NCBI GenBank assembly: GCA_017450705.1
Contig: JAFSTC010000085.1
Location: forward strand, 1-32,670
Direction: 5' to 3'
Origin: Lentisphaeria bacterium
GTDB lineage: Bacteria > Verrucomicrobiota > Lentisphaeria > Victivallales > Victivallaceae
Length of the DNA stretch: 32,670 nucleotides
Under the pieces are notes generated by a model, which was given only the letters and a program-made list of their open reading frames with translations, did no database searches and was not told the origin of the DNA. Positions 344 through 20,018 of this stretch are shown one piece after another. How positions within the stretch are numbered: the stretch's first letter is position 1; each line of letters begins with the position of its first letter. The position numbers were made by a program, and so were the translations under genes.

Positions 344-372
344 TTGATTTTTCGCTTTTTCAGGAATATGTT
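344..372 (+). promoter_or_regulatory. candidate sigma70-type promoter of the trp operon
   Basis: TTGATT (344-349) and TATGTT (367-372) are separated by 17 bases, each matching four of six consensus positions. The predicted start near 379 would give a leader transcript carrying the Trp-rich peptide and both terminators. It is the best placed candidate, but each hexamer is only moderate. Confidence 0.4.
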
Positions 373-414
373 AAGGGGTGTGATTCGAGTTACCAAGGGA
401 GTTTTGACACGTTT

Positions 415-468
415 ATGAGCAACATCGCCTGCAATGTCACGTTGTGGCGCTGGCAAGGCTGGCTGTAA
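415..468 (+). CDS. trpL: trp operon leader peptide (17 aa, three Trp codons)
   Basis: The frame ATG 415 to TAA 466-468 encodes MSNIACNVTLWRWQGWL. Trp codons are at 445, 451 and 460, close to the stop, the classical design of a trp attenuator leader. A purine-rich AGGGAG lies at 396-401, about 13 bases upstream of the ATG, somewhat distant for a Shine-Dalgarno site. The peptide is followed by an antiterminator/terminator pair (470-567) and then by trpE. In the known mechanism, a ribosome stalled at Trp codons when charged tRNA-Trp is scarce lets the antiterminator form. The job is inferred from composition, position and pairing. Confidence 0.7.
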   Translation: MSNIACNVTLWRWQGWL

Positions 469-538
469 AGGTCCGCACTTGCGTTTCGATGTTTGCGTAT
501 TTCCCGAAATAACTCTCAACAGAAAACAGATGCGGATC
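421..538 (+). promoter_or_regulatory. trp leader pairing regions 1:2 and antiterminator 2:3
   Basis: AACATCG (421-427), inside the leader peptide gene, is exactly complementary to CGATGTT (487-493) and would form the 1:2 pairing. GGTCCGCA (470-477), just after the leader stop, can pair with TGCGGATC (531-538) over eight positions, one of them a G-U. The second pairing uses the 5' arm of the terminator at 533-560, so the two are mutually exclusive. GGTCCG also occurs in the terminator's 3' arm (555-560), the mimicry expected of an attenuator. Confidence 0.6.
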
Positions 539-567
539 ATGCCGAAGACGGTGTGGTCCGTTTTTTT
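533..567 (+). terminator. intrinsic terminator, first trp attenuator
   Basis: CGGATCATGCC (533-543) pairs with GGTGTGGTCCG (550-560) over 11 positions, three of them G-U, around a six-base loop, followed by seven Ts (561-567). It lies between the leader peptide and trpE in the same direction, so it fits an attenuator. If the promoter at 344-372 is wrong, it could instead be the terminator of something upstream. Confidence 0.75.
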
Positions 568-783
568 ATGAGCGAAAACAGAATGATGAACGAATCTGCA
601 AAAGGTTTCCGGTGGTGGTGGCGCGGCCCGGGAGGGGAGACGGTCTTCCGTCGTCCGGCCGTGGACGGAAAATTTTTCCGGACGGCGGAAAGTTCAGCGG
701 ATCGCCCCTCCTCACCCGGGAGAAACGGTCCGCTTTTTTTTGTTCGAAGTTCCGGTAAGTTGTGTCCAAATGAGATAGTGTAA
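568..783 (+). CDS. possible second leader ORF with a Trp-Trp-Trp run
   Basis: An open frame with possible starts at 568, 583 and 586 contains three consecutive TGG codons at 613-621 within FRWWWRGPGG, a pattern like trp leader peptides. Just after it, GGAGGGG (631-637) is exactly complementary to CCCCTCC (705-711), part of the 5' arm of the second terminator. Two points argue against a simple leader: no start has a convincing Shine-Dalgarno, and the frame does not stop until 783, past the terminator and 10 bases before trpE. It may be a decayed duplicate, an unusual leader, or chance. Confidence 0.35.
   Translation: MSENRMMNESAKGFRWWWRGPGGETVFRRPAVDGKFFRTAESSADRPSSPGRNGPLFFVRSSGKLCPNEIV
697..741 (+). 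terminator. second intrinsic terminator upstream of trpE
   Basis: GCGGATCG (697-704) pairs with CGGTCCGC (726-733) over eight positions, one G-U. An inner CTCC (708-711)/GGAG (719-722) helix continues it, and eight Ts follow (734-741). CGGATC and GGTCCG are shared with the first terminator at 533-567, which suggests duplication. Its 5' arm can alternatively pair with GGAGGGG at 631-637. It lies 52 bases upstream of the trpE start. Confidence 0.75.
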
Positions 784-793
784 AGGAGAAAAA

Positions 794-2260
794 ATGTTCA
801 AACCCGAATTTGCCGAGTTCACGCGCCTCTCGGAAAAAGGCACCCGGTTCGTTCCCGTGTTCAGGGAATTCCTGGCCGACATGGAGACCCCCGTCTCGGC
901 CCTCTCCGCCTTCGCGGACGACGAAAACGTCTTCCTGCTGGAGAGCGTCGAGGGCGGCGAACGCATCGGTCGCTATTCCTTCATCGGCGTCAACCCCTAC
1001 GCGGTCTTCACTGTGGAGGAGGGCAAGGCCTTCCTGACCGAACGCGGCGGAGCGCGCCGCGAACTGCCCGCGCCGGGGGGGAAGCCCTTCTTCGCCCTGC
1101 GTGAGCTTCTGAAGGCCCATCCCACCGCCCGGACCGAGGGACTGCCTCCCCTCTCCGGCGGCGCGGTCGGCAGCATGAGCTACGAGCTCGCCGGGGAATT
1201 CGAGAAACTCCCGCCGTCCAAGACCCCCGGCGGCGCCCCCGACGCCATGTTCCTGATGACGGGAGAGATGATCGTCTTCGACAATCTCCGGCACACGGTG
1301 ATGATCATCGTCGAGGCCCGCCCGGGCGACGATCCCGCGGCGGACTACGACCGCGCCCGGCAGCGGATCAACGAGCTCCACGAAAAAATGACCCGCCGCA
1401 AGGCACACCCCTTCGCCGACACGCCCTCCGGGATCGAGCTCAAGCCCAAGATCTCCAAGGAGCAGTTCTGCGCCATGGTCGAGCGCGCGAGGGAGTATAT
1501 CCGTCAGGGGGAGATCATCCAGGTGGTCCCGTCCCAGAAATTCACCGCCGAGGAAGCGGTCGATCCCGTCAACGTCTACCGCGCGCTGCGGCTCATCAAC
1601 CCCTCGCCGTACCTCTTTTTCCTCAAGCACGGGGACCATCTGCTGATCGGCTCGTCGCCCGAGACCATGGTCAAGCTGGCCGACGGGACCGCTTCGATCC
1701 GCCCCATCGCCGGAACGCGGAAAAGAGGCGGCACCAGCCGCGAGGATGCCGTCCTCGCCGACGAACTGCTGGCCGACGAGAAGGAACGGGCGGAGCACCT
1801 GATGCTGGTGGATCTGGGACGCAACGACCTGGGCCGTCTGGCCGTGCCGGGCAGCGTCCAGCTCAAGTCCTTCATGGAGGTCCAGCGCTACTCTCACGTC
1901 ATGCACCTGGTCTCCGACATCGACGCCATCCTGCGGCCCGAGTTCGACGCCTTCGATCTGGCCGCCGCGGCCTTCCCCGCGGGGACGCTCTCCGGCGCGC
2001 CAAAGATCCGCGCCATGGAGATCATCAACGAGCTGGAACCCGAATCCCGGGGAGCCTACGGCGGCGCGGTCGGCTACTTCAGCAACTCAGGCAACATGGA
2101 TCTGGCCATCGTCATCCGGACTCTGGAGATCCGCAACGGCACCCTCACGCTGCAGGCCGGCGCGGGCATCGTCGCCGACTCCGTGCCCGAAAAAGAGTAC
2201 GAGGAGACGCTCAACAAGGGCGCAGCGGTCATGAAGGCCCTCCAGCGGCCGCTCATCTGA
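794..2260 (+). CDS. trpE: anthranilate synthase component I
   Basis: The 488-residue product is the chorismate-binding subunit that makes anthranilate with TrpG, the first committed step of Trp synthesis. The N-terminal region carries the LLES element that in this family forms the Trp feedback site (FLLESVEGGERIGRYSFIG, about residues 51-69). The C-terminal half has the chorismate-binding core, with LIGSSPE, IRPIAGTRKRG and the GTLSGAPKIRAM segment. Length is normal for TrpE. AAAGGAG lies a few bases upstream of ATG 794. It opens the operon behind the double attenuator, and trpG follows after 25 bases. PabB is unlikely given the complete trp context. Confidence 0.97.
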   Translation: MFKPEFAEFTRLSEKGTRFVPVFREFLADMETPVSALSAFADDENVFLLESVEGGERIGRYSFIGVNPYAVFTVEEGKAFLTERGGARRELPAPGGKPFFALRELLKAHPTARTEGLPPLSGGAVGSMSYELAGEFEKLPPSKTPGGAPDAMFLMTGEMIVFDNLRHTVMIIVEARPGDDPAADYDRARQRINELHEKMTRRKAHPFADTPSGIELKPKISKEQFCAMVERAREYIRQGEIIQVVPSQKFTAEEAVDPVNVYRALRLINPSPYLFFLKHGDHLLIGSSPETMVKLADGTASIRPIAGTRKRGGTSREDAVLADELLADEKERAEHLMLVDLGRNDLGRLAVPGSVQLKSFMEVQRYSHVMHLVSDIDAILRPEFDAFDLAAAAFPAGTLSGAPKIRAMEIINELEPESRGAYGGAVGYFSNSGNMDLAIVIRTLEIRNGTLTLQAGAGIVADSVPEKEYEETLNKGAAVMKALQRPLI

Positions 2261-9207: not shown

Positions 9208-10395
9208 ATGAAAAAAACACGGATCGCCGTCGTGGGCTTCGGTCAGCGGGGAGGCGCTTTCGTCGCCCTCGCCATGCAGGAGTCGGCGCAAGTCGAGCTG
9301 GCCGGCATCTGCGACTCGTCGCCGGAGCGTCTGCGAAGTTTCGCAAAGAAAAATCACTGCACGGCGCCTCTTTACACCTCGGTCGAAAAGATGCTGGAGG
9401 AGGCCCGTCCCGAGGGCGTGGTGATCTCCGTGCCCGATTTCCAGCACGCGCCCGTTGCGGTCACCGTCCTGAAACACGGCTGCGCCGTGCTGCTGGAAAA
9501 ACCCATGGCCCCCACGGTGGAGGGCTGCCGGGAGATCCTGAAACACGCGGCGAAAAGCCGCGGCGTCCTGCTGGGCTTCGTCCTTCGCAGCCACCCGGTC
9601 TACCGCAAGGTCAAGGAACTTCTCGACGCCGGGACCGTCGGACAGATCATGAATCTCCAGGCCGACGAGGAGCTCTCCGTGATGCACGGCGCAAGCTACA
9701 TGCGCCGCTGGCACCGCCGCGTGGCCAACTCCGGGGGCTTCATGCTGGCCAAGTGCAGCCACGACATCGACATCCTCTCGTGGCTCGTCGGGGAAAACCC
9801 CTGCCGGGTCTCCTCCTTCGGAAGTCTCGCCTTCTTCACGCCGGAGAAGCTGAAGCACGAATTCTGCAGCGAATGCCCTGACCGTGCCTGCCGGTTCCGT
9901 TTTGCGGGCGAGATGGTCGCCATGGACGAAGAGGAGGCTTCCTCCCCCTCGCGGTACGGTTTCGACCGCTGCGTGTACACGAAAGACAAGGACGTGATCG
10001 ACCATCAGGTCGTGGATTTCGAGTATCCCTCCGGCGTCACGGCGAGTTTCTCGCTGGACCTTTTTGCCCCCGCGCCGCGACGCCGCCTCAAAGTCGTCGG
10101 CACGGCGGGATACATCGAGGCGGACACCCGGACTCTCACCGTCGGCGTCGCCTTCTCCGATGGTAGGAAACCGCAGACTTTTGCGCTGAAACAGGAGAAC
10201 GCCTCGGGGCACGGCGGCAGCGATCTTGCGCTTTTCCGCAAATTCGTCGCCATGACGCGGGGAGAAAAAACCGATCTGGCCGGACTGGAGGCGGGGCTGG
10301 CCTCCACCGTCGTCGGCGTCGCCATCGAAACGGCGCGGCGCGAACGCCGCGTCGTGGAGCTCCCGCCCTCCGCCTACGAGGGAGCGCCCAAATGA
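9208..10395 (+). CDS. Gfo/Idh/MocA-family NAD(P)-dependent oxidoreductase
   Basis: A protein of about 395 residues with an N-terminal Rossmann fold ([13 protein letters not shown]), the [10 protein letters not shown] motif containing the conserved Lys of the family, and a [11 protein letters not shown] segment with the catalytic His/Asp arrangement. A Cys-rich insert, [11 protein letters not shown], lies near residue 230. Substrates in this family are sugars, inositols or glycosidic derivatives; the specific one is unknown. ATG 9208 is preferred over GTG 9199; neither has a strong Shine-Dalgarno. It is the first gene behind the promoter at 9125-9153 and probably handles a sugar released by the downstream hydrolase. 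Confidence 0.88.
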
Positions 10396-10460
10396 GTCAT
10401 CTTTCATCGTTTTTTCACAGGAAACCTGATTTATCCGATACAACAACAGGAGGAAAGGAA

Positions 10461-11270
10461 ATGGAAAACCCGAAACAAACCGATCGTCACCTCTCATCTC
10501 TCATCTCTCATCTCTCATCTCTCACGCGTAAACCGGCCTGCCGTTTTACGCTGATCGAGCTCCTCGTCGTGATCGCCATCATCGCCATATTGGCGTCCAT
10601 GCTGATGCCCGCCTTGCAGCAGGCCCGGGAACGGGGACGCTCCGCGCAGTGCATGAGCAATCTCAAACAGCTGGGACTGGCGTGCATGAGCTACAGCCGG
10701 GACCACGGCGGGTTCATCGTCAAGTACATGAATCTCAACATCGGCAAGGCGTCCGAAGGCATCACGTCGGAGTGGACCGGGTACTTCAAATTCGCCAAGT
10801 ACGTGAACCACAACGTGTTCATCTGCCCGTCGCTCTCGCCGGCCTCCAGCTATGCGCAGACCAATTACGTGGCCAACAGCTACAACGTCTCCTACCCCGG
10901 GTACGGCATCTCCTACGAGAACTACGGCAGCGGCCGCTACCGGAGGGGCGTGGACACGGGGCTCTCCATCGCCTGGTCCGCGCTCCACTCGTCGGACATA
11001 AAATATCCCTCCATGATGTACGCGATCATGGACGCCCGGCAGACCTACGCCTTCAACGGCGGCCACTTCGGCTGCCACCGCTTCTCCTACAGCTTCTCCA
11101 CCTCGGCCACCAAGCGAATGGGCAATCCCGACGGGGAACGGCACGGCGGCCGGATCCAGATCCTCTTCGCCGACGGCCACGCGGCCACGCGGGAGGTCGA
11201 TTCCTACGATCCGTACAAGACGCTGGGGTCCGGCCGGTTCCTCGTGCAGTGGAACGGCTGGGGCAATTAG
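10461..11270 (+). CDS. prepilin-type H-X9-DG domain protein (pseudopilin-like)
   Basis: The 269-residue protein has a class III/type IV pilin-like N-terminus ([20 protein letters not shown]) with the conserved Glu5 and a long hydrophobic helix, then a periplasmic domain ending in an H-X9-DG motif ([12 protein letters not shown]). This architecture is common in Lentisphaerae and Planctomycetes; its role is poorly known but suggests type II secretion or surface assembly. ATG 10461 is chosen because AGGAGGAAAGG precedes it; an in-frame ATG at 10392 overlaps the previous stop. The position before Phe is Arg, not the usual Gly. Codons 11-21 lie in a heptamer tandem repeat. Confidence 0.85.
10491..10524 (+). 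repeat. heptanucleotide tandem repeat (CTCTCAT) inside a coding sequence
   Basis: Four perfect CTCTCAT units (10491-10518) are followed by a six-base partial unit. The repeat encodes Leu/Ser/His/Ile-rich residues between the start codon and the prepilin leader. Because seven is not a multiple of three, gain or loss of a unit would shift the frame. Confidence 0.95.
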
Positions 11271-18208: not shown

Positions 18209-18952
18209 TCACCACTCGGCTCCGGCTTCAGACCATTTGCGGTACGGCATATAACTGTAGGGCTGACACCACGCCCGCCAATCGTCGTATGTCGCGTACA
18301 TATTTACCGCATCCGCATGACCATCGGCATACAGGTGATTGTTCCGGCCGCTGTGCGGATGGGCAAGGTTGTCGATGTCCGCGGCGGCAGTAACGATCGT
18401 CATGCGTTCTCCCTCCTTGATGCCCTCCATCAGGGTCACGAATTTTCCGGGATATCTCGCACGATTGATCTTGCGCGCATGAAAGTTCAGATTCCCCTTC
18501 TGTGTATAATCCAGATCCCCGAGACGACGATTGTAGGTACAGGTGGGCAGATATTCCCCTGAATCATTCGGTTTCAACTCGCTCAGAAGCGTCGGACAAA
18601 GCATGATCTTGCCGGCCCGATCGATCTGAGCCGCCCGGCTCCTGCCCAGCAGCGGATTGACGCACTGCAGCCAGCAGCGCACCAGAAATTCATTGTTTTT
18701 CTTCAGTCCGTACGCAATGGGCATATAACCGGCGTTTCCATCTGCATACAGCATGAAAATCGTCCCGATCTCCCGATTGTTGCTCATACAGGAAATCGCT
18801 CTCCCCCGCTCTCTCGCCTGCTGCAGAGCAGGCATCAGCATCGCCGCCAGTATTGCGATGATGGCTATGACGACAAGCAGTTCTATAAGCGTAAAACAAC
18901 GGCCGCCGGCGGGTTTTGTCTTGGAACTGTTGACTCTTGTCGGTTGTTTCAT
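18209..18952 (-). CDS. prepilin-type H-X9-DG domain protein (pseudopilin-like)
   Basis: The 247-residue product has a short basic leader, then [20 protein letters not shown] with Glu5 intact, and a C-terminal H-X9-DG motif ([12 protein letters not shown]). It has the same architecture as the product at 10461-11270 but differs widely in the soluble domain. ATG 18952 is chosen over an in-frame start at 18991 because AGGAG lies eight bases upstream, overlapping the stop codon of the GntR-type gene. The residue before Phe is Cys, not Gly. It sits between a sugar-type regulator and a glycan-active protein. Confidence 0.85.
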
Positions 18953-18965
18953 GATCACGAATCTC

Positions 18966-20018
18966 CTATAATAAACCGGTTGACAAATCACTGATTTCGG
19001 GACGATAAAAGACAGCGCCGATATCCTGCTTGCCGGACATCATGGCCTTCATGAGCAACTCGACGCCGAGTGCCGCAAATCGGTGAAGATCGTTGTCGCA
19101 GCAGATGATCCGGGACAGCGGATAGCGCAGTTGCGCGGCACGGTCGAACATGACAAAGGCCCCCGGCATTTTTTCCGGAATCAGACGTCGTGCGAGGGCA
19201 CAGACAAGAGCGAGGGCAAAAAAATCCTCCAGACAAATCAGCCAATCCGGACGTTCTCTTTCAGGCATGGCAAGAATTTCCCGGATCACCCGTTGTTCAT
19301 CCGAAAATGTTTCGTAGGAAAATATCCGGCTCGTATCGCCGAAGTTTTCATGGAAAACATGTTCCACCTCCCGCCGGATAGTTGCTCGACAAAACAGTGC
19401 GGGACGCAGCGCACGGGATTTTTTGAGCATCGCACATGCTTCGGAAATGATCTTTTCATAATCGAAAAACACGCCGTTTTCCGCAATGCCTCCCGGGGAA
19501 CCGACAAAGACCAGCGGCAGTTTTTTTTCGCGGATGAATTCGATCGCGGCATGACTGAAATCGTCCAGATGTATCAACCCCTGGATCTCTTCGTTTTCCA
19601 CGCAGCGGCGCAAGCCGGGGAAATCGTCTATCTCAAAAAGGATTTGGCCGTTGTTTTCCTTGCGCGAACTGCGGAACAGACGAACTGTACATCCATTCTC
19701 CACAAGGTGCATCTGAAGACTGGTCAAAAGACAGCTGTAGTAGAAATTGTTTTCTCCGTGGAGCATGGTAACTCCGACGATCCGGCCGGCATGCCCCCCG
19801 GCATCGGGATCGATGACGAAAACGCCGACTTTGTCCCGGACTTCGAGCACACCGTCATCACGCAGGGCTTTGATTGCGGTGCCGATCGTCGTCGCACCAT
19901 AACGGAAAACCCTGCGCAATTCGTTTTGCGGCGGGAGCTTGGCGCCGTTTTTCAATTGCCGGTCCCGGATATAGCGTATCAGCAATTGTTTCGCCCGTTC
20001 CGTTTTACGCTCTGTCAT
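18966..20018 (-). CDS. GntR/LacI-type (AraR-like) transcriptional regulator
   Basis: The 350-residue protein has an N-terminal GntR winged helix (about 1-70, [34 protein letters not shown]) joined to a LacI-like periplasmic-binding-protein sensor (about 80-345, [32 protein letters not shown]). This pairing is known from AraR, which represses sugar genes until the sugar binds. AGAGGG precedes the ATG. It heads the operon with the pseudopilin and DUF4838 genes, so it probably autoregulates from the promoter at 20065-20093. Confidence 0.88.

Follow-up and report, generated by a model that had tools for sequence, protein, structure and literature searches.

Putative tandem tryptophan attenuators upstream of the trp operon in Lentisphaeria

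The trp locus and its leader

The window, by which we mean the whole stretch of 32,670 nucleotides that was analysed, comes from a bacterium of the class Lentisphaeria and carries close to its start the tryptophan biosynthesis operon trpEGDCFBA, the leader of which contains two consecutive units of similar build (table 1). Each unit combines a reading frame with clustered Trp codons, an antiterminator strand and an intrinsic terminator, and in unit 1 this terminator sits between the leader ORF and the structural genes. A promoter-like site precedes the leader and places the expected transcription start upstream of position 567, and the expected 5′-UTR of leader 1 is about 35 nt long. The related locus L031 (genome G061) has TTGATT-16-TAAATT at the matching position. 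A point against regulation through this leader is the long gap of 13-16 between the ATG of leader 1 and its Shine-Dalgarno match. Further along the window, two prepilin-like proteins that share a motif are encoded at 10392-11270 and 18209-18991.

Table 1. Features of the trp leader and the start of the operon in the window; energies are from folding or duplex prediction.
Feature	Position	Strand	Details
Putative sigma-70-like promoter	344-372	+	TTGATT-17-TATGTT; 8/12 consensus matches; expected start ~378-380
Leader peptide 1 ORF	415-468	+	MSNIACNVTLWRWQGWL, then stop; Trp codons 445, 451, 460; stop 466-468
Predicted 1:2 hairpin	453-482	+	453-463 with 470-482; -12.2 kcal/mol
Antiterminator strand 2, unit 1	470-477	+	pairing partner 531-538
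Antiterminator strand 3, unit 1	531-538	+	shares bases with the 5′ arm of terminator 1
Terminator 1	532-567	+	532-544/549-561, 13 pairs including a closing G-U; -20.1 kcal/mol; T7 at 561-567
Leader ORF 2	568-783	+	ATG 568, 583 or 586; in-frame TGG TGG TGG 613-621; first stop TAA 781-783
Antiterminator strand, unit 2	627-648	+	partner ~698-717; duplex -23.7 kcal/mol
Terminator 2	696-741	+	9-bp outer and inner 5-bp stem; T8 at 734-741; -20.8 kcal/mol
trpE	794-2260	+	first gene of trpEGDCFBA (794 to ~7308)

Alternative pairings in unit 1

A first-pass annotation of this DNA had described a classical trp attenuator, and most of its elements are borne out. Reading of the open frames in the window confirms a short leader ORF of 17 codons with three clustered Trp codons and a stop, and the proposed 2:3 pairing between 470-477 and 531-538 is found over eight positions with a single G-U (-11.9 kcal/mol). 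The helix put forward as the 1:2 pairing, between 421-427 and 487-493, is exactly complementary (7/7), but it encloses the 470-477 region together with the 453-463/470-482 hairpin and does not compete with the antiterminator. The competing 1:2 structure is most likely that enclosed hairpin, which is predicted to mask strand 470-477 when no ribosome is stalled on the leader. The terminator, said to lie just upstream of trpE, has the expected stem and run of seven Ts, but the ATG of trpE follows only at 794, and a second ORF with Trp codons and a second terminator occupy 568-741.

Folding of the whole leader gives a z of -2.1, and the antiterminator duplex ranks seventh among 200 shuffles. The suggested folding for alternative structures was carried out on the nascent RNA with a modelled ribosome, whose footprint was assumed to reach 12 nt past the A-site. 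A stall at codon 445 or 451 lets the antiterminator form (-16.9 kcal/mol), while a ribosome placed at the leader 1 stop leaves none (-6.1). In this modelling the antiterminator and the terminator are mutually exclusive, a ribosome at the stop covering the former and a stall on a Trp codon exposing it, and by this measure unit 1 is of classical attenuator design.

From the sequence and its pairing potential we infer stalling, termination and an effect on expression in the following way. RNA polymerase would start near 378, with a ribosome following on leader 1. When charged tRNA-Trp is ample, the ribosome would reach the stop at 466 and cover 470-477, and terminator 1 would form; when tryptophan is short, it would stall at Trp codon 445 or 451, leaving 470-477 free to pair with 531-538, and the polymerase would continue. 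Past terminator 1 it would meet the similarly built unit 2, with its own Trp codons, antiterminator and terminator, so that full expression would require the passage of two serial checkpoints that share one signal. Transcription attenuation governed by ribosome position is the best explanation for the control of trpEGDCFBA, and we hold it to be very likely.

Conservation of the switching elements

Direct comparison of unit 1 relies on one sufficiently close relative, L031, where leader 1 reads MNNIGNIAFTWRWQGWL followed by a stop; its unit 1 keeps the Trp codons, the stop, the antiterminator and the terminator at 87-88% identity, and most of the sequence between conserved elements is at 40-60%. 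From the Trp codons to the end of the 1:2 strand (445-494) the identity is 88%, and in terminator 1 it is 87%, against 50% for the N-terminus of leader 1, 41% for the spacer, 44% for the 5′-UTR and 40% for 741-793.

Across the order, the antiterminator duplex ranks tenth or better among 200 shuffles in 40 of 61 units, where about three would be expected; this set includes near-identical genomes, and its units are therefore not all independent. In a set thinned to about one genome per genus (46 units), strands were swapped between units, and none of 20,000 permutations fitted as well as the pairing of each antiterminator with its own terminator arm. The modelled switch was also followed in the nine genomes with two full units: in most of their units the terminator arm is paired under a Trp stall and becomes freer with the ribosome at the stop, the effect being weak in unit 2 of L157 and in unit 1 of L234 and L236. 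Trp codons and pairings are thus retained in relatives, as the annotation had asked to be checked.

The second unit and its possible decay

Leader ORF 2 begins directly behind the T7 of terminator 1, and unit 2 of the window, like unit 1, shows clustered Trp codons, an antiterminator and a terminator; among the 46 units, the best match to its antiterminator is its own terminator arm. What departs from the classical design is the missing stop: behind the Trp codons of the window's unit 2, no stop codon occurs in any frame within 90 nt, and leader 2 has no Shine-Dalgarno match. The homologous leaders of L031 and L032 (G055) possess a normal TGA about 42 nt past the last Trp codon and end in GWRWCWRSSPRGVPIPAACP and WYWWWRRIPRGVPVRSAWP, respectively. 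The contig of L032 starts 171 nt before trpE, and the nearest relative, G005, is cut off at trpE. The missing stop may reflect decay, a different mode of action or an assembly error. Because the stop has been lost in the window, unit 1 probably carries most of the regulation there, whose unit 2 may have undergone partial erosion; both units appear undamaged in L031 and in seven further genomes.

The strongest competing explanation, which we regard as a serious possibility although somewhat short of an even chance, is that unit 1 works alone and that unit 2 of the window is a decayed relic, with a terminator that either never stops the polymerase or constantly lowers expression. The lost stop and the lack of a Shine-Dalgarno match fit a relic, as does the low identity of the unit 2 Trp region to L031 (52%). 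Against this, the window retains three in-frame Trp codons, terminator 2 is 73% conserved relative to L031, and the pairing of antiterminator 2 is kept in the two loci despite their differing sequences, and is seen by eye in L032.

An unlikely alternative is that the two units are linked as a relay, in which engagement of 531-538 in the antiterminator would free the 3′ arm of terminator 1 to pair with the 5′ arm of terminator 2, so that unit 2 would be released by unit 1 and not by its own leader. The duplex of GGUCCG (terminator 1) with GCGGAUC (terminator 2) has a predicted energy of -14.8 kcal/mol and forms when 545-708 is folded. It is strong in the window, in L031 and in L234 with its duplicated units; in L042, L046, L157 and L159 it is weak, and common descent could account for the shared motif.

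Other regulators and the chance background

Control by a trp repressor, TRAP or a T-box, systems that regulate trp genes in other bacteria, is very improbable here: a search of the genome at the cut-offs used, in which the positive controls worked, detected neither TrpR, TRAP nor a T-box, and Rfam covariance models gave no credible match to any leader family at the leader, a permissive threshold yielding only chance-level hits. Among 137 genomes of the order, four have a TrpR match above the cut-off. The attenuators may stand in for a repressor.

The chance background was drawn from twenty stretches of the same genome (332 kb, both strands, or 665 kb strand-bases), in which 28 terminators were counted along with 47 ORFs that hold three TGG codons close together. 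The chance occurrence of a Trp-rich short ORF beside unrelated terminators is highly improbable as far as sequence can show, since such ORFs are not rare by themselves but the 665 kb strand-bases hold no combination of a three-Trp leader ORF with a terminator and the features are conserved in relatives. By the same scan the window holds one such combination, unit 1.

Origin of the operon

The window's trpE is 86-88% identical to those of G061 and G055, which belong to another family, and of G005, which belongs to the same genus, against about 52-64% for the rest of its own family; most congeners have no trpE match. The operon genes, trpC being left out of the comparison, are 70-90% identical to those of G061 and G055. 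On the same contig, uppS is 82% identical to that of a congener and 53-55% identical to those of G061 and G055. Contamination of the contig is disfavoured: uppS is nearest to the same genus, and a second genome of that genus, G005, possesses a trpE of this type, so that transfer is a likelier source of the foreign-looking operon than mis-binning. Sequence identities suggest, as the simplest reading, that the operon was transferred together with its leader between families, in one direction or the other.

Relation to known leaders

In the E. coli trp leader, trpL, a short ORF contains Trp codons, 1:2, 2:3 and 3:4 pairings are alternatives, and a terminator precedes trpE. The leader of the window resembles it in all of these respects and differs from it in that no TrpR was found, two units lie in series and no Rfam leader family matches. 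In Sinorhizobium meliloti, the mRNA begins directly with the trpL leader ORF. That attenuator and the present one have in common consecutive Trp codons and a terminator ahead of trpE, whereas the window has an expected 5′-UTR of some 35 nt and a doubled unit. Several relatives do seem to start their mRNA at the leader ORF, as in Sinorhizobium: at 13 loci (L003, L005, L033, L034, L035, L038, L039, L041, L050, L137, L144, L150 and L243) the -10 box of a promoter-like site upstream of trpE stops 7-10 nt short of the leader ATG, and the mRNA from which the leader peptide is translated is therefore probably almost leaderless.

Two sensors in series within one leader are likewise found in tandem riboswitches and T-boxes; there the RNA binds its ligand or tRNA directly, whereas here the ribosome would be the sensor. 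The Salmonella mgtCBR leader also has two short ORFs on one leader mRNA, but these respond to two distinct signals, ATP and proline, and their effects add up (PMC3641672); in the present leader, by contrast, Trp codons occur in both ORFs, and a separate intrinsic terminator belongs to each. The range of trp attenuation, given by the annotation as Proteobacteria, where it is indeed known, is wider, as attenuators of amino-acid genes have been reported in Actinobacteria too (PMC1262725), and the trp attenuator of Streptomyces venezuelae is cited in PMC4833913. A literature search, in which older subscription papers were little covered, returned neither a same-signal tandem trp attenuator nor trp attenuation in Lentisphaerota.

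Trp leaders across the class

The regions upstream of trpE were read in genomes of the order and class. The tree contains 120 trpE rows, four of which have an incomplete upstream region, and the 116 readable regions were assigned partly by hand. Trp-leader attenuators occur in about 80 of them, with one unit in 40, a single Trp leader followed by a close pair of terminators in 31, and two full units in 9; none was seen in the other 36. Victivallis vadensis (L056) has a single unit with the leader MLNNRIQSVIKGWRWQWRKPAMASFVAL, and shares an identical trpE with G134, a member of the window's family, which supports the placement of the DNA in Lentisphaerota. The claim of classical trp attenuation in this phylum is well supported, since Trp codons and exclusive pairings recur in relatives including V. 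vadensis, but the doubling of the regulator had been missed.

The nine tandem loci, namely the window (L001), L031, L042, L046, L157, L159, L233, L234 and L236, fall in at least four trpE lineages, and a tree built quickly with FastTree requires 5 to 7 changes of the tandem label, which indicates repeated gains, losses or both, indistinguishably. In L234 the two units align over their full length, terminators included; in L234 and L236 they lie within 560 nt upstream of trpE and are about three quarters identical by eye. Judged by these alignments, the paired units of L234 and L236 are a recent tandem duplication.

We consider it reasonably probable that two ribosome-mediated attenuators, both responding to one amino acid and both equipped with a terminator, stand in series before trpE, and that this arrangement was gained or lost several times in Lentisphaeria, once by recent duplication, perhaps in place of a trp repressor and travelling with the operon between families. 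Two serial checkpoints would cut leakage multiplicatively without a repressor. Classical trp attenuation thus gains a comparative footing in a class for which no literature report was found, together with a same-signal tandem form, and the natural series from a single unit through one leader with two terminators to two full units opens the study of attenuator duplication and decay.

Among the loci with one leader, L238-L240, L242, L243, L247, L137, L139, L147 and others carry two terminators about 8-35 nt apart behind one Trp leader. In some of these lineages, a second segment of the antiterminator is complementary to the 5′ arm of the second terminator; as a general dual antiterminator this proved weak overall (swap test p 0.03) and good in some lineages only. 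L255 has three terminators upstream of trpE. About 200 nt upstream of trpE in L054, a terminator is preceded by a possible leader, MNRQTTTTWRTMTMRINP, whose codons include one for Trp and several for Thr.
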